NCBI GenBank assembly: GCA_020846005.1
Contig: JADLEQ010000009.1
Span: 1 to 32,047, forward strand
Origin: Polyangiaceae bacterium
Lineage (GTDB): Bacteria; Myxococcota_A; Polyangia; Polyangiales; Polyangiaceae
DNA length: 32,047 nt
Direction of reading: 5' to 3'
The position numbers were made by a program, and so were the translations under genes. The notes below the pieces were generated by a model. That model worked only from the letters and a program-made list of their open reading frames with translations. It did not search any database and was not told where the DNA came from. The first letter of the stretch is position 1; each line of letters starts with the position of its first letter. This document shows positions 292-29,115 of the stretch, in pieces.

Positions 292-1926
292 ATGGGCCGG
301 ACGCTTCGACACCTCGCGACCTTCGGCGCGCTGCTCGCGGGCCTCGCGCCCGCGTCGGCGCTCGCCCTCCAGCAACCGGACGGCACCACCATCCCGGACG
401 GCAACAACCTGCGGAGCTTCCTCGACGCGCAGCAGTACCAGGGGCAAGCCGAGACGATCGATCCGCTGACGGACGCCGCCACCACGCCGGAGACCTTCGT
501 GCCCGGCTGCGTCCTCACCTTCACCGTCATCGGGCGCGGAGCCGGCCAGCGGAATTCCTTCGGCTGGTACAACGTGACGGGCCAGAAGCCCGCGCTCAGC
601 GAGCTCTACGAGTTCATCCGCTGCGACGACGACGTGGGCGCCACGCGCGATCTCGACATCGCCGGCGACCCGCGCTGGCTCGGCGGCGAGATCGGGTTCT
701 TCCAGGCGACGACCCAGGGCGCCAGCGGCAACTGCGTCCAGTTCCCGCTGGCCGACTCCGGTGGCAACCCGACGCTCGGGTACGTCTTCTACTCGCAGAA
801 GGCCTACAACGACGACAACACGAGCCCGAACCCTTACATCCACCTGCTGATCATGGACAGCAAGGTGTTCCCGAGCGCCTTCTACTTCGGGTGGGAGGAC
901 CTCTTCGCCGGGGGGGACAACGACTTCGAGGACTTGCTCATGCGCGTCGAGGGCATCCAGTGCTCCGGCGGGGGCTCGCCGTGCGAGGTGCCGGGCGCTA
1001 CGGGCCGCTGCGCGCAGGGGATCACCCAGTGCCGCAACGGCAGCCTCGTCTGCGAGCCGGTGATCACGCCGAGCGCCGAGACGTGCAACGCGATCGACGA
1101 CGACTGCAACGGCACGGTGGACGACGGCGACCTCTGCACCGGGACAGATGTCTGCTTCCGCGGCACGTGCGTGCCCCCGTGCGGCGGGGGCGAGTTCGTC
1201 TGCACGGGCGACCTCGTCTGTAACGCCGAGGGGCTCTGCGTCGATCCGGCGTGCGCGGGCAAGGCGTGCCCGGCGGGCGAAATCTGCGTGGCCGGCGCGT
1301 GCAAGGCGCCGTGCGACGGCGTGGCGTGCCCCTACGGTACCGTCTGCCGAGACGGCGCGTGCGTGGATCCCTGCGCCGGGATCACCTGCGACTCGGGCTA
1401 CGCCTGCGTCCTCGGCGTCTGCTCCCGGTGCTCGTGCGGCCTCTCCGACCTGTGCGCCGGCGGCGCCACCTGCAACACGACGACCCAGGCCTGCGTCGAG
1501 ACGGCCTGCGCCACGGTGAGCTGCGGCGCGGGCACGCACTGCGTGGCGGGCAATTGCGTCAGCGACTGCGAAGGCGCGACGTGCCCGGCGGGCCAGGCGT
1601 GCGATCCTTCGACCGGCCGCTGCGCGGAGGTGCCCGGCACCTCGGACGCCGGCGCCGGCTCGGGGGGCGGCGGCGGCACCTCCCTCCCCGACGGCGGCCT
1701 CGTGGGCACGGGCGGCTTCGCGGCGACCGGCTCCGGCGGCGCCGCAGCGGCCGGCGGCGGGGACGCGGGCGCCACCGGCGGCGCGTCCGGCCTCGCGCCG
1801 GGCGGCGTCGTCGAGTCCAAGGGCGGCTGCGGCTGCTCGACGCCAGGGCGCGCTCGCGCGCCGTGGTCGCTTGCGGCTGCGGTGGCGCTGCTCGGAGCGC
1901 TCGCCCGCCGTCGCCGCGCGCGCTGA
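292..1926 (+). CDS. Exported DUF4114-type protein with MopE-like Cys-rich region and MYXO-CTERM tail
   Basis: This 544-aa protein has a signal peptide, with likely cleavage around residues 23-25 after ASALA. Residues about 70-221 look like a DUF4114 domain, ending in the hallmark WEDLFAGGDNDFEDL (201-215), an Asp-rich probable calcium-binding segment. A MopE-type motif CNAIDDDCNGTVDDGD (265-280) follows. Residues about 281-445 hold Cys-rich repeats of the form CxxGxxCxxGxC. A Gly/Ala/Ser-rich linker covers about 446-510. The C terminus (511-544) has GGCGCS, one hydrophobic helix and RRRR, the arrangement of MYXO-CTERM sorting signals. It is therefore probably displayed on the cell surface or released after processing. 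Its substrate or partner is unknown. The start is the only Met giving a clean signal peptide. The gene stands alone, converging on lon. Confidence 0.85.
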   Translation: MGRTLRHLATFGALLAGLAPASALALQQPDGTTIPDGNNLRSFLDAQQYQGQAETIDPLTDAATTPETFVPGCVLTFTVIGRGAGQRNSFGWYNVTGQKPALSELYEFIRCDDDVGATRDLDIAGDPRWLGGEIGFFQATTQGASGNCVQFPLADSGGNPTLGYVFYSQKAYNDDNTSPNPYIHLLIMDSKVFPSAFYFGWEDLFAGGDNDFEDLLMRVEGIQCSGGGSPCEVPGATGRCAQGITQCRNGSLVCEPVITPSAETCNAIDDDCNGTVDDGDLCTGTDVCFRGTCVPPCGGGEFVCTGDLVCNAEGLCVDPACAGKACPAGEICVAGACKAPCDGVACPYGTVCRDGACVDPCAGITCDSGYACVLGVCSRCSCGLSDLCAGGATCNTTTQACVETACATVSCGAGTHCVAGNCVSDCEGATCPAGQACDPSTGRCAEVPGTSDAGAGSGGGGGTSLPDGGLVGTGGFAATGSGGAAAAGGGDAGATGGASGLAPGGVVESKGGCGCSTPGRARAPWSLAAAVALLGALARRRRAR

Positions 1927-1938
1927 GCGCGGGCGGCC

Positions 1939-1957
1939 GTGCGGCGACGCGCCGCGC
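1939..1957. terminator. Hairpin between convergent genes (DUF4114 gene and lon)
   Basis: GCGGCG-ACG-CGCCGC forms a 6-bp perfect stem (1941-1955), extended by a T-G and a G-C pair to 1939-1957. It lies 13 bases after the stop of the + strand gene and before the lon stop. There is no T tract, so termination by this hairpin is inferred from position only. Confidence 0.35.
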
Positions 1958-2013
1958 CCCCACCGGTGCCCCCAGGTCCTCGCCGCGCGCTCGGCTCGCC
2001 CGAGAAGGCTTGC

Positions 2014-4500
<2,487 letters not shown>

Positions 4501-10257: not shown

Positions 10258-11298
10258 TCACTTCGCCCCGAGCTCCGCGAGCTCCTTCTTGGCGGCGTCC
10301 GCCAGCCCGCGCTCCTTCTCGCCCGCCAGCTCGACCACCTTGCGGAACGCGGCGATGGCCTCGGTCTTCTTACCGACCAGGCGCAGGTGCTGCCCGCGGT
10401 AGAAGTGCGCCGCCGCGAAGTCCGGCTTCAGCGCGAGGGCGGCGTCGTAGTCGGCGAGCGCGCCCGGGTCGTCCTTCGCGCCGTGGCGGCAGGCGCCGCG
10501 ACGCACGTGCAGCTCGGGGCTCGGCCGCGCGCCGACTACCTTGTCGAGCACCGCGACGCAATCCGCGAATGCCTCGAGCTTCCCGAGCAGGTTGGCGACC
10601 TGCACCATGACGCCCGGGTCGTCGCTCGCGACCTTCCGGAGCTGCTCCACGGCCTCGTCCCGGCGACCCGCCTGCGCGAGCAGCTCCGCGTACGCGAAGT
10701 GGACCTCCGGAGTCGGCTCAAGCTGGACGGCGGCGGCGTACGCCTTGAGGGCTCCGTCCCGATCCCCCGCCGCCTCGAGCGCGAGCGCGAAGTTGACGAG
10801 CAGCCCGGGGTGCTGCGACTTACGCTTCAGCGCCGCGCGGATGACAGCGAGCGCGCCGTCCGTCTCGCCCGCCTCGAGGAGCAGCCCGGAGAGGTTGACG
10901 CTGGCGTCGGGGAGCGCCGGATCGAGCTCGATCGCCCTCTCGTACCACTTGCGCGCGTCGCCGGGCTGGCCGAGCCCCTCCAGCGCGAGCCCGAGGTAGT
11001 AGGCGGCCTGGGCGTCCTTCGGGTGGCGGGCGACGGCCTTCTCGAGCAGGCCGCGCGCGCGCTCGAAGTCCTTGGCCTCGAGCGCGGAGATGGCCTCGGC
11101 CACCTCGGGGCTCGACGCCGGCTCGACGCCGCCCGGCGCGGCGCCGGGCTCGTCCAGCGGCGGGGGATCGACGGGGGCCTGCGCGGGCGCGGGCCCCGCG
11201 CACGCTCCCACGAGCCCCGCGGCTCCCACGAGCCCCGCGGCTCCGATCCGCCGTGTCGCGCCCACGAACCCTGCCACACGCTTCGCCATCGTCGTCAT
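10258..11298 (-). CDS. TPR-repeat lipoprotein cotranscribed with glnD
   Basis: This 346-aa protein has an N-terminal hydrophobic segment ending GLVGAC, with Cys33 as the likely lipidated residue. An Ala/Pro-rich linker is followed by consecutive TPR units from about residue 60 to the end, with motifs such as AAYYLGLALEGLGQPGDA and ERAIELDPALPDA. It is probably an envelope-anchored scaffold, and its partner is unknown. The ATG at 11298 overlaps the glnD stop as ATGA. A second ATG at 11289 has GGAG 10 nt upstream and could be the true start, which would drop three residues. The open frame continues upstream through glnD antisense-like composition, but that part lacks any domain. Confidence 0.88.
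   Translation of the reverse strand: MTTMAKRVAGFVGATRRIGAAGLVGAAGLVGACAGPAPAQAPVDPPPLDEPGAAPGGVEPASSPEVAEAISALEAKDFERARGLLEKAVARHPKDAQAAYYLGLALEGLGQPGDARKWYERAIELDPALPDASVNLSGLLLEAGETDGALAVIRAALKRKSQHPGLLVNFALALEAAGDRDGALKAYAAAVQLEPTPEVHFAYAELLAQAGRRDEAVEQLRKVASDDPGVMVQVANLLGKLEAFADCVAVLDKVVGARPSPELHVRRGACRHGAKDDPGALADYDAALALKPDFAAAHFYRGQHLRLVGKKTEAIAAFRKVVELAGEKERGLADAAKKELAELGAK
11204..11239. repeat. 18-bp tandem duplication in the lipoprotein signal region
   Basis: Two exact copies of GCTCCCACGAGCCCCGCG encode a doubled Gly-Leu-Val-Gly-Ala-Ala-type segment inside the hydrophobic core of the signal peptide. The unit is in frame, so it lengthens the signal by six residues. Confidence 0.85.
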
Positions 11299-13976
11299 GC
11301 TCCGCGGGGAACGTCTAGCCCGGAAACGACGCTCAGGATACGGGCTTTCACCTCCTCGATGCGCGCTGGCTCGAGCTTCGAGCCGTCGGCCTCCGAGACG
11401 TAGAAGACGTCGGCGACGCAGTGGCCCTCGGTGTTGATCTTGGCGAGCGCGATGTCGAGCCGCTCCTCCTGGAGCGTGTGCGCCAGCCAGAACAGCACCC
11501 CGAGGCGATCCCGCGCCGTCACCTCGATCAGCGTGTGCCGAGCCGAGGCGCGGTTGTCGACGAGGACCTCCGGCGTGACGCCGGGCGCCGGGCGCTCCCC
11601 GAGGCCCCCCGCCCGCCGCCGCGCCTCGACCAGCTCCGTCGCGACTCGCCGCCCCTGGAGCAGGTCGACGAGATCCCGCTCCAGGCGCTCCGCCAAGCCC
11701 TCGCTCGTGCCCTCGCCCGCCGGGCGCACCCAGAAGAGATCGAGCACGCGCGCCTGTCCCCGAGGGTCCACCCACGAGTGCACCTGGGCGCTCAGCACGC
11801 TCAGGCGCGCGGCGGCGAGCGTCGCCGTGATGAGCGCAAGGAGCCCCGGACGGTCCCGCGCGACGAAGGCGATCTCGAGGTGCGTGCCGTCGCTGCCGAG
11901 CACGCCGACCGCGGGCTCGCGCTCCACCGCCTCTGCCGCGAAGCCAGCGTGCCGGACCACCGCCTCGGGCTCGTTGGCGTAGAGGTAGCGATCGGGCATC
12001 GCCTTGAGGAAGTGATCGATGAAGCGCGACCGCCGGCCCCAGACGGCACGCACCCGCGCGCGCCGCCCCTCGAGATCCGTGCGCTCCGCCTGCCCCGCTC
12101 CGTGCTCGAGCCAGCGATCGGCGGCCACGTAGAGCTCGTCGAGCATGCGCGCCTTCCACGTCGTCATCGCGCCCGGGCTCGTCGTCGAGACGTCGCACAC
12201 GGTGAGCAGGTAGAGCTCGCGCAGGCCCTCGCGGCCGTGCACGTCGGCGCACAGCTCGACCAGCGTCGCCGGGTCGTCCACGTCGCGCTTGGTCGCGACG
12301 TGGTACATGCGCAGGTGCTGGAGGACGAGGTGCTGCACCTCGGCGATGTCGGTGGGCGCTAGGCCGAGCCGGGCGAGGATCGCCCCGGCGAGGGCGTGCC
12401 CTCGCTGGGCGTGGCCCCGGCCGCCGACGTCCTTCCCCACGTCGTGCAGCAGACACGCGAAGAAGAGGACGGTCGGGCGCGAGAGCTCCGCCGCGAGCCG
12501 CGACGCGAGCGGAAACTCGACGGCGAGCTCGCCCCGGCACAGCGCGGCCAGCCTCGCGACACACGCGACCGAGTGCGCGTCGACCGTGAGCACATGGTAG
12601 AGATCGTGGTGGACACGGCCGATCACGGGGGCGAACTCGGGGACCATCGCGACGAGCACCCCCACGTCGTGCAGCTCGCCGACGACGCTGCCCCCGCGGA
12701 ACCGCGGGCGCTGCGCCGAGGCGCACAGCCGGACGAACAGCCGCGCCGCCTCGGGCGAGGCCCGGAGCCGCTCCGCGAACGCCGGCAGACTGGCCGCGCG
12801 CGCGATCGCGTCGCGCGCGAATTGATACACGGGGAGGCGCCGGCGAACGGCCTCGTCGTACAAGCGCAGCGCGATCGCGGGCTCCGCGTCGAGCGACGCC
12901 GGATGGATGATGGAGACGGCGCCGTTCGTGATCTTGAGCTCGCCCTCGATCCGGACCTCGCTCGGCCGGCGCCGCGGGGGCGGCGCCGCGCGCGCGAGCA
13001 CCGTCTCCATCCCGCGGCCGACGGCGCGCGCGCACCGGTAGTACTCGCTCATGAAGCTCTCGACGCCCGGCCCGCCCGGCCCGTGCCCGAGCGCGATCGC
13101 GATCTGCTCCTGCCGATCGAAGCTCAGTCGATCGGAGCGCCGGCCCGCGAAGACGTGGAGGAGGTTCCGCACCCGATGGAACAGGCGGATCCCCCGCTCG
13201 ATGCCCTGCCACTCTCGGGGGACGAGGACGCCGATGCGGATGAGGTCCCGCAGGCTCGCCACGCCCCAGCGCGCGCGCGCGGCCCAGTGGGCGACGTCGT
13301 AATCGCGGAGCCCACCGGGGCCGTGCTTCACGTCCGGCTCGAGCAGGTAGACGGAACCGCCGAACCGGGCGTGCCGTTCGTCTGCCTGCTCCGCCATCCG
13401 GTCGAGGAAGCCGCCGAGATCCGCCTCGCCGAACACGCCCTCGTGCAGGCGCGCGACCATCCGCGCGCCGAGCGCGGTACCTCCCGCGAGCGCGCGCCAG
13501 TCGAGGAGCGAGGTGGCCGTCGGGAGGTCGTGCCGCGCCAGCTCGAGCAGCTCGTCCGGCTCCACGACCTGGTGGCCCAGGGCGACGCCCGAGTCCCAGA
13601 GCGGGTAGAGCAGCGACTCGACGACCTCCCGCCGCCCCGCGTCGCCGTCCGGCACCAGGACCCGAACGTCGATGTCGCTCGCGAACGACGGCGCGCGCCT
13701 GCCGTAGCTCCCCACCGCCGCGAGCTCCACCCCCGCCGCCTGGGTGCCCTCACCCCCCACCGTGACCTGGAAGAGCGCGCCGAGCAGCTCGTCGAGCGCG
13801 GCGGCGTACCGCTCGCACGCCGGGAGCCCGGCCTCCTCACCGCCCGCCTCGATGGCTCGCGCGATCTCCCGCCGCTCGCCCTCCAGGCGCGCGCGCCAGG
13901 CGGAGGCGGCGCGCGTCGGGTCGCCGGCCGGGGTCGGGGCCGGGGCGCTCGGAGCCGGGGGGACCGCCTGGGTCAC
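11295..13976 (-). CDS. glnD: PII uridylyltransferase / uridylyl-removing enzyme
   Basis: GlnD uridylylates and deuridylylates the PII signal protein according to glutamine level, setting nitrogen status. The 893-aa protein has the nucleotidyltransferase signature GSYGRRAPSFASDID (89-103, with both Asp present). The GlnD-specific segment LEPDVKHGPGGLRD follows, then an HD domain with LLHDVGKD near residue 510. Two C-terminal ACT domains begin near residues 700 (VARDRPGLLALI) and 817 (VTARDRLGVLFWL). All domains are in family order. The start is inferred: GTG at 13976 is the most downstream usable codon before the domain, without a clear Shine-Dalgarno. The frame stays open to 14468 but that would run into the divergent gene. 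The stop overlaps the lipoprotein start. Confidence 0.95.
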   Translation of the reverse strand: MTQAVPPAPSAPAPTPAGDPTRAASAWRARLEGERREIARAIEAGGEEAGLPACERYAAALDELLGALFQVTVGGEGTQAAGVELAAVGSYGRRAPSFASDIDVRVLVPDGDAGRREVVESLLYPLWDSGVALGHQVVEPDELLELARHDLPTATSLLDWRALAGGTALGARMVARLHEGVFGEADLGGFLDRMAEQADERHARFGGSVYLLEPDVKHGPGGLRDYDVAHWAARARWGVASLRDLIRIGVLVPREWQGIERGIRLFHRVRNLLHVFAGRRSDRLSFDRQEQIAIALGHGPGGPGVESFMSEYYRCARAVGRGMETVLARAAPPPRRRPSEVRIEGELKITNGAVSIIHPASLDAEPAIALRLYDEAVRRRLPVYQFARDAIARAASLPAFAERLRASPEAARLFVRLCASAQRPRFRGGSVVGELHDVGVLVAMVPEFAPVIGRVHHDLYHVLTVDAHSVACVARLAALCRGELAVEFPLASRLAAELSRPTVLFFACLLHDVGKDVGGRGHAQRGHALAGAILARLGLAPTDIAEVQHLVLQHLRMYHVATKRDVDDPATLVELCADVHGREGLRELYLLTVCDVSTTSPGAMTTWKARMLDELYVAADRWLEHGAGQAERTDLEGRRARVRAVWGRRSRFIDHFLKAMPDRYLYANEPEAVVRHAGFAAEAVEREPAVGVLGSDGTHLEIAFVARDRPGLLALITATLAAARLSVLSAQVHSWVDPRGQARVLDLFWVRPAGEGTSEGLAERLERDLVDLLQGRRVATELVEARRRAGGLGERPAPGVTPEVLVDNRASARHTLIEVTARDRLGVLFWLAHTLQEERLDIALAKINTEGHCVADVFYVSEADGSKLEPARIEEVKARILSVVSGLDVPRGA

Positions 13977-14012
13977 CCCCGGGGTGTAGCGCCGGCGGGG
14001 CCGGGCCGGAAT

Positions 14013-14030
14013 CCGCGACCGCGGTCGCGG
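14013..14030. promoter_or_regulatory. 18-bp perfect palindrome in the glnD divergent promoter region
   Basis: CCGCGACCGCGGTCGCGG is a perfect 9+9 palindrome between the glnD start (13976) and the divergent gene at 14055. It sits where the -35 element of the rightward promoter would be, given the TACATT at 14042. It is an operator candidate. Chance is not excluded in such GC-rich DNA, although 18 perfect bases is long. Confidence 0.45.
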
Positions 14031-14041
14031 CGGGTCGATGC

Positions 14042-14047
14042 TACATT
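14042..14047 (+). promoter_or_regulatory. Putative -10 (TACATT) for a leaderless transcript
   Basis: TACATT fits TANNNT and lies exactly 7 nt before the ATG at 14055. Transcription would begin at or next to the start codon. No Shine-Dalgarno is present, which fits leaderless translation. Confidence 0.5.
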
Positions 14048-14054
14048 GCGCTCC

Positions 14055-14624
14055 ATGAGCAGGACGACCCGGAGACAGTGGCTGGTCGCCGCGGGCGCGG
14101 CGCTCGGCGCCCTCGCCGTCGGTCCGCGGGTCGCGCGCGCCGGCGTCGCCCGCGCCGTGACCCTCGAGGAGCTGGTGGCGCTGAGCCGCTTCGGCGTCGT
14201 CGCGACGCCGGTCGATGCGTTCAGCCGGTGGGAGACGATCGGCAAGCGCAAGCGCATCGTGACGTACACGCGGCTGCGGATCGAGGAGGCGCTCCTCGAG
14301 GCGGACGATCCGGGGGCCGAGCAGCTCGTCCGCACCCTCGGCGGGCAGGTCGGGGAGATCGGTCAGATCGTCCACGGCGAGGCGGTGTTCACCATCGGCG
14401 AGCGCACCGGCGTCTTCCTGCAGCCGCTGGGCGACGTGCTCACGGTGACGGCCCTCGCGCAGGGGCACTACCCGCTGCGCGCCGACTCCCGTGGCGCGCT
14501 CCGCCTGGCGCCGAGCCCGCGCCTGGGCTCATTGGTCGGCGAGGAGTCGTCCGCGGTCCGCCGCCTGGTCGGGCGCACGGCGAGCGAGGCGCGCGACCTC
14601 GTGCGGGGTGCGCGTGGCCGCTGA
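14055..14624 (+). CDS. Exported protein of unknown function with Tat-type signal
   Basis: This 189-aa protein begins MSRTTRRQWLVAAGAALG. The twin arginine followed by a hydrophobic stretch and ARAGVARA cleavage region resembles a Tat signal peptide. The mature part is a compact alpha/beta segment with motifs such as LSRFGVVATPVDAFSRWE and VHGEAVFTIGERTGVFLQP. I do not recognise the family. It contains no cysteine and no obvious catalytic motif. The gene overlaps the start of the metalloprotease gene, so the two are likely made together. A role as partner, inhibitor or co-exported factor of the protease is conjecture from this overlap. Confidence 0.78.
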   Translation: MSRTTRRQWLVAAGAALGALAVGPRVARAGVARAVTLEELVALSRFGVVATPVDAFSRWETIGKRKRIVTYTRLRIEEALLEADDPGAEQLVRTLGGQVGEIGQIVHGEAVFTIGERTGVFLQPLGDVLTVTALAQGHYPLRADSRGALRLAPSPRLGSLVGEESSAVRRLVGRTASEARDLVRGARGR

Positions 14625-16839: not shown

Positions 16840-18270
16840 TCAGCCCGCCAGCACGGGGAGCGCGCGCGGGGCGGCGCCCGGACGCGGATCCTTCGGCCGA
16901 GGCGGCTCGGCTCGGCGAGCCGGATCGACGACCTCGGCCTCGAGCGAGTGGCGGAACGCTCGGAGGACGCGCACGCGTAGGAGCTCGCCCGTCGGGTCGT
17001 CGCGACACCCCAGGTGGACGATCTCGTTCCGCTCGGTGCGCCCGGTGAAGCCGCCGCCCAGGCCGGGGCCCTCGACCAGGATCGTCTCCTCGTGCCCGAC
17101 CCGCGACGCGAGCCACGCTTGCCGGAACTCCTCGCCCGCCGCCAGCAGCTCCTCGAGCCGGGCGCCCTTCTCCGCCTCCGAGACGTCGGCCGCGAGCCGG
17201 GCCGCGGGCGTGCCCGGCCGCCGCGAGAACTTGAAGCCGAACACGCCGGTGAAGCCGATCTCCCGCACCAGCGCGACCGTCTGCTCGAAATCCTCGCGCG
17301 CCTCGCCGGGGAAGCCCACGATCACATCGGTGGAGAGCGTGATCCCTGGGACGGCCGCCCGGAGCGCCGCCACGCGCTGGCGATACTCGGCGGAGTCGTA
17401 GCGGCGGATCATGCGCTTGAGGACGCGATCGCTGCCCGACTGCACCGGCAGGTGCACGTGCCGCGCGAGCACGGGGAGCTCGGCATGCGCGCGCACGAGG
17501 TGGGCGTCGAGGTGCCGGGGGTGCGGGCTGGTGTAGCGCAGGCGCGCGAGCGCCGGGACCTTCGCCGCGATGGCGCGCAGCAGGCAGGCGAACTCCCCCT
17601 CCCCTTCCGACGCCGACCCCGCTCCCCCGCCGGCGGGATCCCGATAGGAGTTCACCGTCTGCCCGAGCAGCGTGACCTCGCGCACGCCGGCCGCGACCAG
17701 CCGCTCCACCTCGCCCACGATCTCGCTGGCCGGCCGGTAGCGCTCGGGGCCCCGCGTGTACGGGACGATGCAGAACGAGCACCGCTCGTCGCAGCCCTTC
17801 ATCACGGTCACGAAGGCGCACGGGTCCGGGCGCCGATCGGCGAGGGCGCCGGGCTGGGCCGGCAGGAAGCGCGGCGCGTCCAGGTCGAACTGGGTGCGCA
17901 CCCGCGGCGGCGCCCCCTGCTCGATGTCGGCCAAGAGCGCCGGCAGCTCGGCCAGGTGGTCCGGCCCGAGCACGAGGTCGATGGCGGGCACCCGCGAGAG
18001 CAGGCGCTCGCCCTCTTGCTGCGCCACGCAGCCCGTGACCCCGATCACGAGCGACGGACGCGCCCGCTTCCAGCGGGCGATCCGGCCAACCTCGCTCCGG
18101 AGCTTGAGTTCGGCCTTCTCGCGGACGCTGCACGTATTCAGCAGCACGACGTCGGCGGACTCGGGGCGCTCCGCCTCCACGTAGCCCGCGCCGCGGAGCA
18201 CCTCCCCCATCCGGGCGGAGTCGTGCACGTTCATCTGGCACCCGAAGGTGACCACCGCGTAGCTGGGCAT
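16840..18270 (-). CDS. miaB: tRNA-2-methylthio-N6-isopentenyladenosine synthase MiaB
   Basis: This radical SAM methylthiotransferase adds the 2-methylthio group to i6A37 of tRNAs reading UNN codons. The 476-aa protein has the N-terminal UPF0004 cluster ligands Cys11 (FGCQMN), Cys47 (NTCSVRE) and Cys81 (TGCVAQQ). The radical SAM CxxxCxxC triad is Cys160, Cys164 and Cys167 (GCDERCSFC), and a TRAM domain lies near the C terminus. The pattern is that of MiaB more than RimO or MtaB. The start at 18270 (MPSYAVVTFGCQMN) is typical; an upstream GTG would add seven residues. TAGCTT at 18282-18287 lies 11 nt before the ATG and may be the -10. The C-terminal tail is Pro/Arg-rich. Confidence 0.96.
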   Translation of the reverse strand: MPSYAVVTFGCQMNVHDSARMGEVLRGAGYVEAERPESADVVLLNTCSVREKAELKLRSEVGRIARWKRARPSLVIGVTGCVAQQEGERLLSRVPAIDLVLGPDHLAELPALLADIEQGAPPRVRTQFDLDAPRFLPAQPGALADRRPDPCAFVTVMKGCDERCSFCIVPYTRGPERYRPASEIVGEVERLVAAGVREVTLLGQTVNSYRDPAGGGAGSASEGEGEFACLLRAIAAKVPALARLRYTSPHPRHLDAHLVRAHAELPVLARHVHLPVQSGSDRVLKRMIRRYDSAEYRQRVAALRAAVPGITLSTDVIVGFPGEAREDFEQTVALVREIGFTGVFGFKFSRRPGTPAARLAADVSEAEKGARLEELLAAGEEFRQAWLASRVGHEETILVEGPGLGGGFTGRTERNEIVHLGCRDDPTGELLRVRVLRAFRHSLEAEVVDPARRAEPPRPKDPRPGAAPRALPVLAG

Positions 18271-18305
18271 CGGCCGGCGGCAAGCTAGCACGCCGTCCGC
18301 GATTG

Positions 18306-18404: not shown

Positions 18405-18695
18405 ATGAAGCGAGCCCCGCGACCCACCCGCAAGGAACGACGCGCCCAGCGCGGCCCGGCCGCCGCCGCCAGCGCCACCGTCCACGGCGATCACGGCCAC
18501 ATCCACTGCGTCGCCTGCGGCCGACACATCAGCGCCGACGAGCTCGCGTCGTCGCCGCCGACCGCGACGTGGCTCACCTGCGACCACGGCGGGCACTTCG
18601 CGTCCTGTACGACCTGCATGGTCCAGTCGCAGATGCTGATCGCCACCCACGAACGCACGGGTCAGCCGGTCCGCTCGGCGCCCGCACGCCACTGA
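18405..18695 (+). CDS. Small zinc-ribbon-like protein of unknown function
   Basis: This 96-aa protein has a basic N terminus (MKRAPRPTRKERRAQR) and then a Cys/His-rich core. Cys35-x2-Cys38 (HCVACGRH), Cys59, and Cys68-x2-Cys71 (SCTTCM) suggest one zinc site with extra His ligands in DHGGHFASC. I do not recognise a named family. There is no signal or membrane segment. The start is set by AGGAG at 18391-18395, 9 nt before the ATG. It diverges from miaB and converges with the giant repeat gene. Nucleic-acid binding would fit the basic tail and ribbon, but is not shown. Confidence 0.72.
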   Translation: MKRAPRPTRKERRAQRGPAAAASATVHGDHGHIHCVACGRHISADELASSPPTATWLTCDHGGHFASCTTCMVQSQMLIATHERTGQPVRSAPARH

Positions 18696-18735: not shown

Positions 18736-21700
18736 CTAGCCGAGCAGCGACCGCGCACCGGCGTGGTCGGGGACGTCGCTCAGCGCCTTCATCGCGAGCA
18801 CGCGGGCCTTCTTGGCGTCGCCCTCGGCGTGCGCCGCGAGCGCGAGGCGGTAGTTCGCCTCCGCCTTGGCCTCCGGCGGCGCGCCCTCGGCGCCGTCGCG
18901 AGAGGTCTTCATCATGCTGATCGAGCGCCACGCCTTCAGCTCGGCCTCGTCTTCGCCGGCTCGCCGCGCGATGTCCGCCAGCTCGAGCGCGAGCGCGCCG
19001 TTCCGCAGATCCATGTCGAACGCGCGGGTCATGGCCGCGAGCGCGCTCGCGGCGTCGCCTCCCGCCAGGTGGAGTCGCGCCTGCTCGCGGAACACGGGCG
19101 CGAGCGCCTTCACGCGTCGCCCGCGCTGCGTCTCGGCGAGCTCGGCGAGGATCGCGCGCGCCTCTGCGACCCGCCCCGACCGGGCGTACCCCCGCGCGAG
19201 GAGGACCCCCAGCTCGACGTGCTCGGGCGCTCCGCTCCGAGCGCGCTCGAGCAGCGGCACGGCCTCCTCGGCGCCGTCGTCCAGCTCGAGGAGCACCTCC
19301 GCGCCCTCGACGAGCTGACCCAGTGACTCCGCGGGCGCCCCGCCCGTGACGGCGTCCGCGAGCAGCAGCCGCGCGAGCTCGCGCCGAGCCCCCGCCGGCT
19401 CATAGATGGCACGCATCCGCGCGACGAGCTCCGGGCGCCCCGGGGCGAGCGCGTGCGCGCGCTCCAGCGCCGGGATGGCCGCCGCCGGCTCCCCGAGCGC
19501 GACGGCCGCGCCGGCCGCCGCCAGCGCCTGCTCCACGACCTCGGGGCCGGTGGCGAGATCGACCAGGGCGCGGCGCGCGCCGAGCACCGCGGCCCAGTCC
19601 TGGACGCGCTCGCCGACCTCCGCCTGGAGCTCGTGTGCCTCGGCCCAGGCGGGCGCGACGGCGATCACTGCGTCGAGCCGATCGCGCGCGCGCTCGACGT
19701 CGCCGCGACGGACCAGGCGGCGCGCGTGCTCGAGCCCGAGGACCGCGAGATCCTCGCCGTGCGCCTGCTCCAGCGCGACGTCGAGCGCGGTGACGAGCTC
19801 CTCCTCGACCGCCTCGCCGCGGGCCTCGAGCTCGATCCAGGCGGCGACCGCCTCGCGCCCGCGCCCCACGTCGCCCAGCAACTCCGCGCGCCGCACCAGC
19901 CACGGCACGCGCGGCTCTCGCGCGATCGCGGACTCCACGACCGCCAGCGCTCGACCCGAGTCACCGCTGGCTCGCCGCGCGTCCACCGCGCGATCCACGA
20001 GCCCGGGATCGCCCGGCTCTGCCTCGAGCGCCTGCTCGAGCACGTCCGCGACGCGACCCCAGTCCCCGCGCTCGGCGTGCCGCCGGAGGACCTCATCGCG
20101 CAGGACGGCGCTGCTCGGGCAGGCGTTCAGCCCGAGCTCGAGCGCGCGCTCGAGCCCCGCGTCGTCCTCACGCGCGCGGCGGAGGTCGACCAGTCGGAGG
20201 GCCAGCGCCTCGGCCACGGCGGGCTCCGCCACCGCGATCGACGCCTCGAGCGCGTCCCCGAGGCGGACGTCGTCCCCGGTCGCCTCCGCGAGGCGGACCG
20301 CCGTCGCGAGGAGTGCCGGCTCGCGCCCCCAGTCGAGCGCGCCCGCCAGGACGTCGAGCGCGTCCTCGGCGCGATCGAGCGCCTCCAGGAGCGCCGCGAG
20401 CCGCCCCGCCAGCGCCACCACGCGCGCGGAGTCCTCCGCGTCCCGCGCCGCGTCGAGCTGCTGGCGGAGGAGCGCCGCGAGATCCTCCTGCCGGCCCGCC
20501 TCGGCGAGCAGCCGCTCGAGCAACACGGCCGCGCCCACCTGGCGCGGGTCCTCGCCGAGGATGTCCTCGAGCACCGCTGCCGCCGCGTCGCGGCCCTCGG
20601 GCTGCTCGAGCAGGAGCGTCGCCTGCTCCAGGCGCAGCCGGCTCCTGTCCGCTGCGGAGTCGACGAACGGCAGGACCCGGTCGATCAGCCGCGCGAGCTC
20701 GAGGTCGTCCCCGAGCTGGCGCAGCGTACGGAGCAGGCGCTCCCACACGTCGCGATCCGCAGGGTCGCGCGCGAGCAGCCGGTCCAGCGCGCGCGCCTCG
20801 AGGCGCGGCTCCCCGGCCACGACGGCGGCGCGCGCGACCGCCTCGAGCTCGTCGCGCGAGGCGGGCAGGTCGAGGCGCTCGGCGCGCAGGAGCCGCAGCT
20901 CGAGCGCGCGCGCGAAGTCCCCCGCTGCGTGCAGGCGACCCGCGAGCTCCTCGAGCGCCCACAGCGCGTCCGCATCCGGCAGCTCCGCTGCGTGACGGAC
21001 CAGGGCCTCGAGCGCGCGACGCGCGAGCGCCGGCGCGCTCTCCTCCGCGGCCAGCGCGACGCACTCCCGCACGAGCGCCGGCTCGGGGGAGCGCTCCGCG
21101 CGCAGCGCGAGGGCCTCGGCGAGCAGCGCGCCGCTCCCGCTGGCGCGCGCGAGCCGTTCGAAGAGCTCGATCGCCTCGGCGCGCTCCGCATCCACGCGGA
21201 GCACCTCGCGGAGGGCGCCCGCGGCCCGGCTCGCGTCGGGCTGCGCCTCGAACGCGCGCGCCAATAGGTCGAGGCCGTCCGAGCGTGTCTCCGCCTCCGC
21301 GAGCCGCACCTCCGCCAGACGGTAGAGGACGGGCGCCTCCGGCGCGCTCGCCCGACCGAGCCGCCACGCGGCGATGCGCTTCTCGAGGATCTCCGACTCC
21401 CGCGCCGACTCGCCGAGCGCGTCGAAGGCCCGCGCGATGGAACTCCAGGCGGAATCGTCGGCGCCCGGATCCGCGTCGAGCCCGGCCAGGATACGCTCGG
21501 CGCGCGCCGACAACGCGCTCCGGCGCTCGGGCGCGGCGCTCAGGCTCTCCCCGTGGAGCGCCACCAGATCCGCCAGCGCGCGGGCCTGGGCGGCGGCGCC
21601 GCTGGCGGCAGCCAGCCGGGCCTCGACGGCGCGCGCCAGCAGCTCGACGCGGCCGCGCGAGCGCAGTGCCGCCTCCAGGGCCGCCGCGTCCCGCTCGCTC

Positions 21701-24700
21701 TCGAGCGCTGCCTCGAAGGCGGACTCGACGAACTCCGTCGCGCGGAGCGAGTCGTCCCGATGCACGGCGATCTCGCTGAGATCGAGCAGCGCCTCGGCGC
21801 GGGTCGGCCCGCGCGGGTCGTCGCGCCGGAGCAGGAGCAGCAGCGCGCGGTACGTCCGCTCCGCGCGGTCGAGATCGCCGAGGTCGAACGCCACCCGCGC
21901 CAACGTCCCGAGCACGCCGGGGTGCGCGGGATCGATCTTCGTCGCGAGCTCCAGCTCGGCCACGGCCGCCTCGGCCGCTCCCTGCCCCAGCCGGACGAGC
22001 GCGAGCTCGCGGTGGACCAGCGCGCGCTCCTTCGGCCGGCGCGCGCCGTACCGATCGATCTGCGCCCGCAGCACCTCCGAGGCTCGCTCGAGGCCGCCGA
22101 CGGCCCGCAGCGCGGCAGCGAGGCGGAGCCGGAGCTCGACGTCGTCCGGCGCCAGCTCGATCGCCTGCTCGAGGAGCGGCACGGCGCCCGCGGCGTCCCC
22201 TCCCCGCGACCAGCGGAGCTCCGCGGCCTCCTCCAGCCAGCGCAGGCGCGTCGCGGCGTCCGGGGCCCGCGCCGCCTCCGCGACCAACAGATCCGCGAGC
22301 AGCGGCCACGCGCCGTCCTCACGATAGAGCTCGGCCAGGCGGCGCCGCACCGCCGCGCCGTCCAGCGCCGCGTGCGCGGCGTGCTCGAGGCGCTTGCGAG
22401 CGCTGGCGCGATCGCCCAGTCGGATGAGCGTGGCCGCGAGCCGAAGCGCGCGCTCGCCGAGCTCCTCCCGGGACGAGACCGTGCACAAGCGCTCGAGCGC
22501 TCTCGCCGCGTCGCGGTCGCGCCCCGCCGTCGCGTGGATGCGCGCGAGCGCCTCGAGCGATCCCTCGTGGCCGAGATCCGCCGCGCGCCCGTGGTCCGCC
22601 AGCGCGCGCTCCGCGTCCGCGAGCCGCCCCTCCGCGGCGTTCGCGGCCCGCGACCACGCGGCCGCTGCCGCGGCGGCCTCGCCGGCGTCCGCCAGCTCCG
22701 CCGCCTGGCGCTCCCAGAGCTCGACGACCCGCCCGTGCTCCTCGCGATCCTCCAGCAGCGTGACGAGCCGCCCGACGAACGACTGCGCGACCGGATCGGC
22801 GGCGGTCTCGCCGAACAGCTCCAACAAGAGCGAGCTCGCGCGCTCCGGATCCCCCAGGCGGTCGACCGTGAGCAGCGCCGCGTCCCGTCGCAGCTCCCGG
22901 CGTCGCCGGGCGTCGAACGGCAGGCGGCTCGCGTCGAGCAGGAGCTCGACCAGTTCGTCGTGGCGCCCCCGATCGAGCAGCAGCGCGGAGAGCTCCTCCA
23001 CCGCCCATGCCGCCGCTCGCGCGGGCTCGGGCGAGCCGTCCTCGACCCAAGCCGCGCCCGAGCGGTCGAGCAGCGCGCGCGTCACCTGCACGGCGAGCTC
23101 CGGGTCCGCGTGGGTCGAGCCAGCGACGGCGATCGCGCCGTCCCAGTCCGCCGCCTCGAGGTAGGCGCGCACCGCGCGCCGCGCGTCCGCCGTGCGCTCG
23201 ACGTGCACGCGCGCCAGGCGCAGCAGCAGCTCCCGCCTCCGAGCGACGCCCGCCTCGGAGGCGGCCTCCGCCTCCAGGAGCCGCGCGAGCTCCTCGTCGC
23301 GACCCACCTGGCCGAGCAGCGCGGCGAGCTCCTCGAAGCTCTCGGCGTCCGCGCCGTCGAGCGCGCGGACGCGCTCCCACGCCTCGATCGCCTGCTCCGC
23401 GCTCCCGACCTCGACGGCGAGGAGCCGCGCAGCGCGCACGCGATCCGCGCGCGCTGCGCGCCCCTCGAGGTGGCGCGCGCGCTCGACCAGCGCCGCGACC
23501 AGCGCGCGCCAGTCGCGCGCGGCGTCCAGCGCGGAGCACAGCCCATCGAGCGCCCGGCGCTCGACGGGCGCGAGCGCGAGCGCGCGCCGCCAGTCCGCCG
23601 CCGCGCGCTCCGGCTGCGCCAGGGCGCCCAGCGCCAGCTCGGCGGCGACCGCGAGGCACTCGACCCGGTCCGCGGGCTCCGGCTCGAGCTCGGCGCGGCG
23701 CTCGAGGGCGGCGCAGCGCCGCTCGGCCGCACCCTCGGCGGCGAGCAGCGGATCGGCCTCGCGCGCCGCGCGCAGCGCCAGCTCGGGGGTCGCCGCGACG
23801 GCCAGCGCGCGCTCGAGCTGCGCCGCCCCGCGCGGCGCGTCGCCGAGCGCGCTGGTGAGCACGCCGGCGGCCTCGAGCAGCAGGCCCGCACACGCGTCGC
23901 CCTCCGCCTGCTCGGCGAGCGCCTCGAGCGCCTCGGCCCGCGCGCCCTCGCGGTTCGCCGTGGCCGCGAGGCGCCCGAGTCGGTCCCGGACGGCGAGGTC
24001 CCCCGGACCGAGGCGGACGAGCGCGAGCACCGCGTCGAACGCCTGTGCGGCGTCTCCGAGCTCGTGCTCACAGAGATCCGCGATGCGCGCCAGCGTCACC
24101 GCGCGCGCGGCGTCGTCCGCCGCGCCCTCGAGCTCGATCGCGAGCATGCGGACCACGTCGGCGTGGCGCCCTCGCTCGGTGTAGTGCGCCGCGAGCTGCT
24201 GCGCGACGAGATCGCGGACGCTCCGCTCACGCGGCGCGGCGGGGCGCGTAGCGGACGGCGGCGGCACGCTGCGCCGCGCCGTCGGCGCCGCGATCAGCCG
24301 CTCGAGCAGCGCGACCGCGTCTGCCGAGAGCGACCCGCCGGCGATCAGCGACTCAGCGATGCCGAAGGCCTCGAGCACCTCACCGTCGTCGAGCCAGAGC
24401 GTGGCGATCCTGACCTCGAGCGCGTGCCGCTCGGCGGGCGCGGCGCTCGTCGCCCGGCGAGTGAGGATCGCGACCAGCGGGCGCGTCCGCCCCTCGCGCT
24501 CATAGAGGCGCTCGAGCGCCTGCTCGACCCGGGCGTCCGCGGGCGCGAGCGCGGCGAGCGCCTCGTAGTAGCCGATCGCCCGTGACGCGTCGGACGCGAA
24601 GTCCTTGGCGGCCATGGCGGCCTCCCGCAGCAGCTCAGCGCGCTCCGCGGGCTCGAGGCGCGCGAGGGCGGCGTCATAGAGCGCGAACAGATCGTCCCAG

Positions 24701-27700
24701 CGGCCGCTCGATCCGTACGCGAGCTTCAGGCGGTCGAACGCCCACGCCGCCGAAGGGTTGAGCCCGAGCACGCGCCGCAGGAGCTCGAGGACACGCTCGC
24801 CGTCGTCGAACCACTCCTCGTGGAAGTCCACGACGCGGCGGCCGATCGCCTCGGCCTCGTCCGCCGACAGCCCGCCGCCGAGCGCGGCGTCGTAGGCGGC
24901 CGCCGCCGGCTCGGGCCGGCCCAAGCGGCGAGCGGTCGCCTCGAGCGCGTCCCACAGCTCCTCGGCGGCGGGGAGCTCGTGGACGCCTCGGAGGGCGACC
25001 TCGAGCGCGCGCTCGTCGTCCTCCGCGCTGCACTCGACCAACGCCGCGTACCAGCGCCCGCGCGCCGCAGCGAGCGTCGGCTCTGGGCCGAGCGCCAGCA
25101 GCCGCTCGAGCACGCGGGCGCGTGACGCCGGATCCGGCTGATCGCGAGCGGCCCGCTCGAGCAGCTCGGCGGCGCGATCCCGGGCCGACGGATGGGCGAG
25201 CGCCCGCAGCGCCAGCGCCAGCGCGTCGTCGTCCGCCGGCTGCGCCTCGAGCACGCTCGCCACCACGCCGAGCGCCGCCTGCGGCTGCCCGAGCGAGTCG
25301 AGGAGCAGCTCTGCGATCTGCGTGTCGACCCCGGCGCGGGCCGCCGCGTCGACGCCCTCGCGGAGCGCGCGCAGCAGCTCGACGGCGCCGACAGCGTCCC
25401 CGAGCCGCGCCTTCAGGCGAGCCGCCTCGCGCAGGGCCTCGACGTGCTCGGGCTCGCGCGAGAGGATCCGCTCGTACAGGGCGAGCGCCCGCGACGGCTC
25501 CCCGAGCTCGCTCTCCTCGGCCCGCGCCCACTCGAGGAGCGCCGACGCCGTGGCTTCGCCCCGGCTCGCGCGGCGCTCGTGGACCCACCGGCGCTCGCCG
25601 GTCGCGCCGTCGAGCCCGGGCGCGCCGCGGAGGAACGCCTCGTAGGCGTCGAGCGCTGCCGGCTCACCGTCGCCGGCGCTCTCCACCAGCCGGCGGTGCA
25701 GCCCGACCGCCGCCGCCGCGCGCGCGGGATCCCGCGCCAGCACGCCGGCCAGCGCCGCCTCGAGCTCGCGCCGGGCGGTGGGCTCCGCGGAGGCGAGCGC
25801 CTGCGTCGCCAGGTGCTCGAAGCGAGCTACGTCGTCGGGCGCGGCCACGCGAAGCGCAGCGGTGACGAGCGCCCGCCTCGCCTCGACGACGCGAGTCCCC
25901 GTGAGCAGCGCGACCGGCGCCTCGAGCTCCGCGAGCGCGAGCCGCGACGCGGCGACCGTGACCAGGTGCGCAGCGATCGCGTCCTCGGTCGGCGCCAGCT
26001 CGAAGGCGCGGCGCCACGCGGCGAGCGCGCGCTCGGAGTCCTCGAGATCCGTCTCCGCGAGCACGGCGGCGGCCCGCAGCGCGGCCACCGCGTGATGGAC
26101 GGAGGCCGGCTCGAGCCGCCACGCCTCCGCGAGCGCCTCCAGCGCGGCGGCGCGCGCGGCGGAGTCCGCTGCGCGCTCCACGCGCTGGGCGAGCACCTGC
26201 CGCAGGAGCTCGACCTCGCCGAGCGAGCGCGCGACGGACTCGACGCTGGCGAGGAAGTCGTCGTGGCCGACGCCGGCGGCGAGCAGCTCGCGTTGCAGCA
26301 CGAGCGCGGCCTCGCGGCGCCCGCTCTCGACCTCGACGGCCGCGAGGCGCTCGAGCACGTGCAGCCGCCGCTCGCCGTCGGCCACCCCGAGGGCGCGCTC
26401 GAGCTCCTGGGACAGCGCCGCGCGATCGCCCTGCTCCGTCAGCAGCTCGACGAGCGCCGAGTGGGCGGCCAGATCTCGAGGATCCTCCTCGAGGATCAGC
26501 TGATATGCGGCGCGGGCCGCGCGGGCGTTGCCCAGGTCGCGACGCTGCAGCGCGGCGACCGCGTGCAGGAGCTGGCGGCGGCGCATCGGCTCCGTCGGCT
26601 GGGCGAGCGCGCTCTCGTAGAGCGCGAGGCGCTCGCGGGGGCTACCGCGCTCGGCGAGCAGCTCGTCGATCCGGCCGAGCAGGACGGCGTCGTCCGGCGC
26701 TTGCGCGAGCAGGCGCCGCAGGATGGCGACCGCACGCGGGACCTCGCCGACCTGCGCCAGCGCCTCGCCCGCTGCGCGCGCCAAGCGCGCGATCTCGGGG
26801 CGATCCACGGGCGCGTCGCCGAGCGCGAGTGACAGCGCGCGCGCGCGCACCGAGGGATCGAGGCCGTCGGCGAGCGCGTCGACCCGCGCGAGGCAGGCGT
26901 CGACGCGCTCGGGGGCGTCCGCCACGGCGAGGCCGAGCGCGCGCCCGGCCAGCGCCGTCGCGCGCTCCCGATCGCCGAGGGCCTCGCCCGCGAGGCGCGC
27001 CGCCTCGTCGAGCGCAGCGAGGCGCCGCGCCGCCTCCCCGGCGAGCAGCCCCTCGACCTCCAGCGCCTGCACCAGCTTCGCCGTAGCGCCCTCGCGCCGC
27101 AGCACGGGGCCGAGCGCGACGGCGGCCGCGAGCCGCGCCTCGCCGCTCGCCATCGCCTTCTCGAGCGCGGACCGCACCGAACGCTCCTCCGGGGCGAGGG
27201 CGAGCGCGGCGCCGAGCGCGGCGACCGCGCCGGGCGCGTCCGAGAGCCGGAGCTGTCGGAGCTGCGCGAGCCGCAGCAGGTACCCGACGCGCTCCACGCC
27301 CTCCACCGCGGACGCCTGCCGCTCGACGAGCTCGGCCAGCTCGCCCCAGCGCTTCTCGGCCTCGAGCAGCGGGGCGAGTCGCGCGTCGAGCTCCGGGCTG
27401 GCGCCGAAGCGCCGGGCCACGCCTCGCCACGCCTCGATCGCTCGATCGCGAGCCCCCACCTCCGCCCACAGCTCCGCCGCGCGCTCGGCGAGCGGCCGCG
27501 CCTCCGCCGCGTCGCGCGAGCGCTCCGCGCGCAGGCCGAGCGTCTCCGCGAGCCCGGCGCGATCGGCCGCGGCCTCGTGCAGCGCCTCGAGCCGCCGGAG
27601 CGCCTCGTCCGCCCACGGCGAGTCGACCAGCGCACGCCACGCGCTCACCCCCTTGGCCGCGTCGCCCTCGCTCTCCGACAGCCGCGCGAGCCGGCGCGCC

Positions 27701-29115
27701 GCGGCGTGGCGGCGCTCGGCCTCGGGCTCCAGGCGCAGCACGTGCTCGAGCGCCACCATCAGCGGCCGCATCTGCCCGGCCTCGGCGTGGAGCTCCGCCA
27801 GGCCGCGCGCCGCCTCGAGCTGTGCCGCCGGCTCGTCGCCGGCCTCGAGCGCCTGCTGGAAGGACTGCTGCGCTCGCCGCGCGTCCCCGGCCTGCTCGTA
27901 GGCACGCCCCGCGTCGACCGCCACGCGCGCGCGGAGCGCCGGATCGCGGGTCGACGCGAGCGCCCTCGAGAGCAGCTGCGCGGCGTCCGCCGTCTTCCCC
28001 AGGGAAGCGGCGAGCTGCACGAAGCGCCGGCGCAGCTCGTCGTCCGCGGGCGCGCCCGCCACCGCGGGCCCGAGCAGCTCGTACGCCCCCTCGGGATCGT
28101 CGAGCGCGTCTTGGCGCAGCACCGCGAGCCGGCGCTGCACCTCCACTCGGCGCGGACCGCGCGCGAGCTTGAGCTCGAGCCCGAGCATGGCGGCGGCGTT
28201 CCCTACGCGGCCCGTCCGCTCGTAGGCCTCCGACATCGCCGCCGCTGCGCGCGGCGCGACCGCGGCGTGCTCGAGGAGCTTCTCCGCGGCCTCGATCGCG
28301 CCGGCGTGGGACGGCTCCAGGGCGAGCAGCGCCTCGACCGGCTCGATCGCGCGCGCGGCGTCCGCGGCCGGCCCCATCCTGAGGGCGAGGACGCGCTCCG
28401 CGAGCGCGCGCGCCTCCTCGGGCTCCGGGGGAGCTCCGGCCCGCAGCGCCGCCTCGAGCAACGCGGCGAGCTCGCCGTGCCTGCCCGCCGCTGCGAGCCG
28501 AACCTCCAGCGCCGCTCGCGTGTCCGACGACGGCGCGAGGGCGTGGAGCCGCGTCATCGCCTCGACGGCGAGCTCGGCCGCCGCGCCGTCGCCCGAGAGC
28601 TCGACGGCGCGCCGGAGCCGCTCGAGCCGCTCGTCGCCGGAGGCCGCCTCCGCAGCCGCGAGCTCGAGTCGGACGAGCCCGTCCCGGTCGCCGCGATCGG
28701 CGAGCAGCGTGCGGAGCAGCGCGAGCGCGCGGGGGTGGCCGGGCGCCGCCGCGAGCGCGCGCTGTGCGTGCGCCCGCGCGCCGTCGTCGTCCCCGAGCGT
28801 CTCGGCGAAGAACCTCGCCGCGTGCAGGAAGAGCTCGGCCTGGAGCGGCGGGGCGATCAGCTTCACTCGGCGCTCGCTCACCGCGTGTTCGAACGCGAAG
28901 GCGACGTCGCCCACTTTGTCGTGCTGGACGCTCGCAGCGAGCAACCCAGACCAGAGCTCCGGGTGCGGCTGGCCCTTCGCGAGCGCGCCCACGAGCGCAT
29001 CGAGCACCGCCTGCGCGTCCCACTCCGCCCCCTCCAGCGCCGCGCCGAGCTCCTCGACGCGCAGCGCGCGCGCTCCTGAGGGCCGCTTCGTCTTCGGAGG
29101 TGGGATCGTGGCCAT
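18736..29115 (-). CDS. Giant helical-repeat (TPR-like) protein, 3459 aa
   Basis: One uninterrupted frame of 10.4 kb encodes a protein built almost wholly of degenerate TPR-like helix pairs. Examples are [36 protein letters not shown] and the last unit [18 protein letters not shown]. Composition is dominated by Ala, Leu, Arg and Glu. There is no signal peptide, membrane helix, catalytic motif or cysteine-rich segment. A short Pro/Ser-rich linker ([19 protein letters not shown]) near residue 1620 divides it into two solenoid halves. The N terminus ([15 protein letters not shown]) is Pro/Lys-rich, suggesting a flexible cytosolic start. The ATG lacks a good Shine-Dalgarno; TACGCT at about 29141-29146 may be a -10. 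At about 34 residues per TPR it could hold up to about 100 repeats. It probably scaffolds a large assembly, but its partner is unknown. Codon and base composition match its neighbours. Confidence 0.9.

Follow-up and report, generated by a model that had tools for sequence, protein, structure and literature searches.

A giant TPR solenoid protein of Polyangiaceae, distinct from GltI, as a probable cytosolic scaffold

Giant TPR solenoids are already known as a kind in myxobacteria through GltI (AgmK, MXAN_4863), a 4,132-aa TPR component of the machinery for gliding in Myxococcus xanthus (PMC3169522). AgmK is included in the gliding gene set (PMC3169522) and is reported to belong to a complex of motility proteins with the receptor FrzCD as its binding target (PMC3447774, PMC3169522). 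GltI is the only myxobacterial giant TPR protein with a known role that we found. Here we analyse a 3,459-aa protein encoded by a Polyangiaceae bacterium (GenBank assembly GCA_020846005.1) in a stretch of 32,047 nucleotides of contig JADLEQ010000009.1, hereafter the window. It resembles GltI in size class, TPR repeats, myxobacterial host and the lack of a predicted signal peptide or TM segment. We assign it to a family of its own, A, and, as far as the searched literature shows, it is undescribed: no description of family A, or of the related families B and D defined below, was found in that literature, which leaves out most subscription papers. A homology search, named by the first-pass annotation as a possible refuter of its reading, likewise returned no well-characterised family.

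The protein is encoded by a minus-strand ORF with an ATG start. The ORF is a genuine gene, since its coding bias is strong (GC3 0.94 vs GC2 0.53) and homologues align along the frame in 42 relatives. The start reads MATIPPPK, and a relative of the same genus begins MATTPPPK. The computed mass is 368 kDa and the computed pI 5.1. A search for TM segments found none (the Kyte-Doolittle 19-residue average peaks at 1.47), and no N-terminal signal was seen, as judged by eye. On its contig (C9) the gene is flanked by an H+-PPase gene and by a gene for a small Cys/His-rich protein, the latter followed by a miaB-like gene:

18736-29115, minus strand: family-A giant TPR solenoid, 3,459 aa (ORF, Pfam, coding bias, homologue alignments)
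16840-18291, minus strand: miaB-like gene (radical SAM, UPF0004, TRAM)

P0002 (18285-18758, minus strand) was rejected as a gene, being an out-of-frame ORF.

Pfam assigned the giant to TPR families, including TPR_19 (E 8.7e-19), together with a weak match to the TT21 ARM repeat, likewise TPR-like; no domain other than TPR-type was returned by this search. Both a TPR superfamily profile and a 34-residue periodicity are found in the protein. In the alignment, periodicity peaks at 17, 34, 37 and 71-72 residues exceed a position shuffle by 9-16 standard deviations, and the 71-72-residue double unit consists of 34- and 37-residue hairpins in alternation. AF2 models of residues 1-1150 (alignment of 35 sequences; mean pLDDT 90.6, 64 helices) and 1380-2560 (28 sequences; mean pLDDT 87.8, 66 helices) are all-helical. 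In them antiparallel helical hairpins are stacked as a superhelix (pLDDT 88-91), and only residues 1-14 and a loop at about 1611-1632 are clearly disordered. The top Foldseek matches in the PDB include the TPR superhelices TTC21B, SKI3, Ctr9 and OGT (O-GlcNAc transferase), and other structural matches include MamA, LGN and CTPR. Since the models are all-helical and match TPR superhelices, we consider the repeats to be TPR-type; Pfam, periodicity, AF2 and structural matches together settle whether they are TPR or a distinct family. The earlier description of a soluble helical-repeat solenoid devoid of enzyme, anchor or export signal also stands. Extrapolating from the two thirds modelled, the whole chain would contain about 190 helices, that is about 95 hairpins. 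TTC21B (IFT-A), SKI3, Ctr9 and OGT are long TPR superhelices that scaffold complexes; they are eukaryotic, and the likeness is at fold level only, with 11-18% identity and low whole-length TM-scores.

The internal anatomy was obtained by searching family A against itself with profiles of successive overlapping windows, in 18 homologues that are related and do not amount to 18 independent tests. Two pairs of blocks emerged. In the first, residues 1-700 correspond to 1326-2050 and the offset hardly varies (1325-1349); in the second, residues 2201-2485 correspond to 3175-3459 at an offset of 974. The median offset is attained in nearly all of the 18 homologues. Because the offset is constant over successive windows, the N-terminal arm is an old internal duplicate. 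The resulting parts are the following:

27016-29115, minus strand: N-terminal arm, residues ~1-700, ancient duplicate of ~1326-2050 (self-profile search)
22966-25140, minus strand: second copy of the arm block, residues ~1326-2050 (self-profile search)
18739-25008, minus strand: core, residues 1370-3459, collinear with the ~2,600-aa family D (window profiles, tree, conservation)
24475-24972, minus strand: conserved core start, residues 1382-1547, [30 protein letters not shown] (A and D conservation)
24220-24285, minus strand: Pro/Ser/Arg-rich linker, residues 1611-1632, disordered loop (pLDDT dip, sequence)
21691-22251, minus strand: canonical TPR domain, residues 2289-2475, motif [13 protein letters not shown] (MamA superposition, conservation peak)
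21661-22515, minus strand: residues 2201-2485, duplicated at the C-terminus (offset 974)
18739-19593, minus strand: residues 3175-3459, C-terminal copy of 2201-2485 (offset about -975)

Judged from the profiles, the duplication boundary lies near 1326-1370 and not at the Pro/Ser loop. The proposal of two rods hinged near residue 1620 is therefore retained for its two arms, which stem from this ancient duplication, and corrected for its hinge, since the Pro/Ser stretch, where block pLDDT drops to about 51, is a disordered loop inserted within one repeat. Across families A and D, conservation is highest at ~1382-1547 and 2289-2490. Residues 2289-2475 superpose on MamA (3vty) with VIA-align at Z 17.5 and rmsd 2.4 over 174 aligned residues, and the closest folds for this domain are the adaptor or scaffold TPRs LGN, MamA, KLC and OGT. 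MamA, a magnetosome TPR scaffold, can serve as a works-like model for a TPR scaffold; it has ~200 aa against the 3,459 aa of the window protein, and magnetosome genes are not implied. The MamA profile (NCBIfam NF040959) scores 63.6 bits on the giant, far below its cut-off of 200. The block-level anatomy and the two conserved sites provide starting points for interaction tests.

Family-A homologues were found in 42 relatives in Polyangiaceae, from Sorangium, Polyangium, Minicystis, Labilithrix and many MAGs, named hosts including Sorangium cellulosum, Minicystis rosea and Byssovorax. Counting the window protein, 43 long proteins align over most or all of their length with 27-44% identity, and a subset of 16 is collinear with the window protein at 34-44%. 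Of 37 genomes in the family, about 26 have a clear match, according to a hit list read by hand. Most relatives keep the frame unbroken, interruption having been raised earlier as grounds for doubt; the exceptions are the divergent copy of G008, which is shorter (2,775 aa), and the So0157-2 locus, which opens late and whose longest frame is 3,325 aa.

Such a repetitive chain could be a low-constraint expansion with little function. Length does vary, complete family-A frames spanning about 3,460 to 4,661 aa and D-like ones about 1,940 to 2,885 aa, and family A looks less conserved within the family (34-44% identity) than family B (51-59%) or the giants found at the place of GltI (59-72%). We nevertheless regard this explanation as very improbable: some forty collinearly conserved proteins keep an uninterrupted frame of more than 10 kb, and at 240 positions identity reaches 80% or more in A and D alike. 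Since collinear conservation extends over the full length in the family and over ~2,090 residues across the class, we think that selection acts on the rod as a whole.

The window protein is not alone in its genome. With its N-terminal 500 residues as query, two further giants were found there, one of 3,779 aa (C55, family B) and one of 3,773 aa (C40). With three such giants in one genome, the rarity claimed by the first-pass annotation does not apply to this lineage, although it may hold for bacteria at large. Family B is order-wide in distribution and has blocks in common with A (A 1-800 with B about 1150-1940; A 2001-2480 with the B C-terminus), and the A block ~1326-2050 also matches B around residues 1120-1810. 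It differs from A by its other block order, higher conservation and own locus, often beside an aminotransferase-like gene. In most B loci read (L065, L068, L069, L150-L153, L155 and L156), this neighbour carries xxRGFLYGDxxFE near its start.

The core has a relative in family D (~2,600 aa; L187-L200, L135, L136), which occurs in several families of the class. When 200-residue-window profiles of A were searched against the other families, residues 1401-3400 found their counterparts in D, in unchanged order, in all 14 proteins, and residues before ~1370 gave no mapping onto D. Family D is thus collinear with A 1370-3459, with the same conserved blocks and C-terminus, and is devoid of the 1,370-residue N-terminal arm. 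In a core-region tree with B as outgroup, of uncertain rooting and with long branches, a branch sets D apart, and A forms two groups. A and D are mostly exclusive within the family, G008 carrying both, and genomes devoid of A mostly carry a D-type or shorter frame (G003, G010, G016, G017, G024, G025). Phylum-level matches outside the class are weaker, and most of them lie in frames about as long as GltI. In one class, two or more additional giant TPR families of similar size, B and D/A, both widely conserved, are in this way defined.

The 3,773-aa giant is near proteins matching the GltG, CglF, GltE and GltC profiles, all below the curated cut-offs but clear, and for this reason is taken as GltI by position. 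The window gene is outside this glt cluster, which is on contig C40. The comparison with GltI was made with the giants at its place. Against them, the best positions of the A window profiles are scattered, with no consistent diagonal, and a profile of their C-terminal 173 residues reached 2 of 18 family-A proteins, with negative scores, that is, no real match; this search is the negative comparison. The window protein is devoid of their C-terminal ~170 aa, and both kinds coexist in one genome. Its identification as the GltI ortholog was therefore rejected: the locus is wrong, the proteins are not collinear and the GltI-type C-terminal end is missing. In the same genome, a 1,815-aa protein (G000:C107, L044:6419-11866) combines a Ser/Thr kinase domain with TPR repeats C-terminal to it, and its end looks, by eye, like the C-terminus of the GltI-place giants.

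A distant GltI relative could still work beside GltI in gliding or type IV pilus motility, in a structural or regulatory capacity. GltI is itself a giant TPR motility protein, the window genome holds a glt cluster (GltG-, GltC-, GltE- and CglF-like) with its own giant, and PilB/PilT-type ATPase genes are about 7 kb from the family-B paralogue. The TPR protein SgmX is reported to promote type IV pili in M. xanthus. However, the window gene is outside both the glt and pil clusters, its neighbourhood varies by lineage, and the protein neither aligns collinearly with the GltI-place giants nor has their C-terminal end. Besides, in the small genomes G013 (97% complete) and G037 (98%) a GltC-like gene is present with a single giant close by, presumably GltI, and the matches to families A, B and D are weak only, the assemblies being drafts and the absences read off these weak best hits. 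Motility, offered earlier with cytoskeletal and secretion machinery as an example of the process served, is thus possible by kinship but, like these two, unsupported, and we judge it unlikely. It is the leading specific process only through kinship with GltI, and we hold a motility or polarity assembly to be an unlikely candidate.

Since the protein is soluble and acidic and has no enzyme, membrane or export feature, we favour, with some confidence, a cytosolic, non-enzymatic, multivalent scaffold, in which the location, the scaffold role and the groove binding are all inferred. The ~95 TPR-type hairpins would form one long superhelical rod, made of two arms from the internal duplication and a duplicated C-terminal end. 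Its concave grooves, chiefly 2289-2475 and 1382-1547, may accommodate short stretches of multiple partner proteins, and this could keep a large assembly together or at set spacing. The suggestion of a large-complex organiser is plausible in this light, the closest folds of the conserved domain being those of adaptor and scaffold TPRs. The TPR fold of both modelled stretches, the collinear conservation with its two peaks and the reported place of the distant relative GltI in a protein complex also speak for it. On the other hand, TPR folds are found also in sensors, regulators and chaperone-like proteins, and no conserved neighbour points to a partner. One could further imagine, although we consider it unlikely, that GltI, B and D/A are separate giant TPR rods, each the backbone of a different cytosolic assembly, one of which was lengthened in Polyangiaceae by arm duplication. 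In that case the window protein would serve as organiser of a large complex so far undescribed, or as a ruler at the scale of the cell.

The grooves might instead bind kinases or other regulators, making the protein a sensor or signalling platform. A Ser/Thr kinase gene is located 43 nt upstream of family D in L135 and another is near D in L188, and the genome encodes the kinase-TPR fusion on C107. The kinase link is weak, however, with kinases clustered at few family-A loci at variable distance, and kinase genes are common in myxobacteria. We judge this platform quite unlikely and keep the scaffold as the preferred reading.

No neighbour gene is kept across family-A loci, where neighbourhoods are lineage-specific only: HU in Sorangium and Polyangium, DnaK/DnaJ in the Labilithrix group and the small Cys/His-rich protein in the subclade of the window. 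The gene for this last protein (18405-18692, plus strand) is next to the giant or close to it at 12 subclade loci, being convergent with it here and on the same strand in other subclade loci. A homologue is present in 22 of 59 relatives, mostly away from the giant. A functional link between both genes was rejected on this patchy distribution, and their proximity is treated as lineage synteny. The product is basic with HIHC..C motifs, and its homologue has no Pfam match.

Elsewhere in the window, an ARAGORN tRNA-Gly call (18042-18128, plus strand) inside the miaB-like gene, with no Rfam support, is probably false. Further along the contig lies one more enzyme gene:

11295-14468, minus strand: GlnD-like uridylyltransferase (GlnD_UR_UTase, HD, ACT)

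Since this gene fills the stretch, the several plus-strand ORFs listed over it are likely spurious. Tandem repeats occupy both contig ends (1-127 and 31766-32020), with units of 14 bp in 9 copies and of 24 bp and 48 bp, and the assembly may have broken there because of them.
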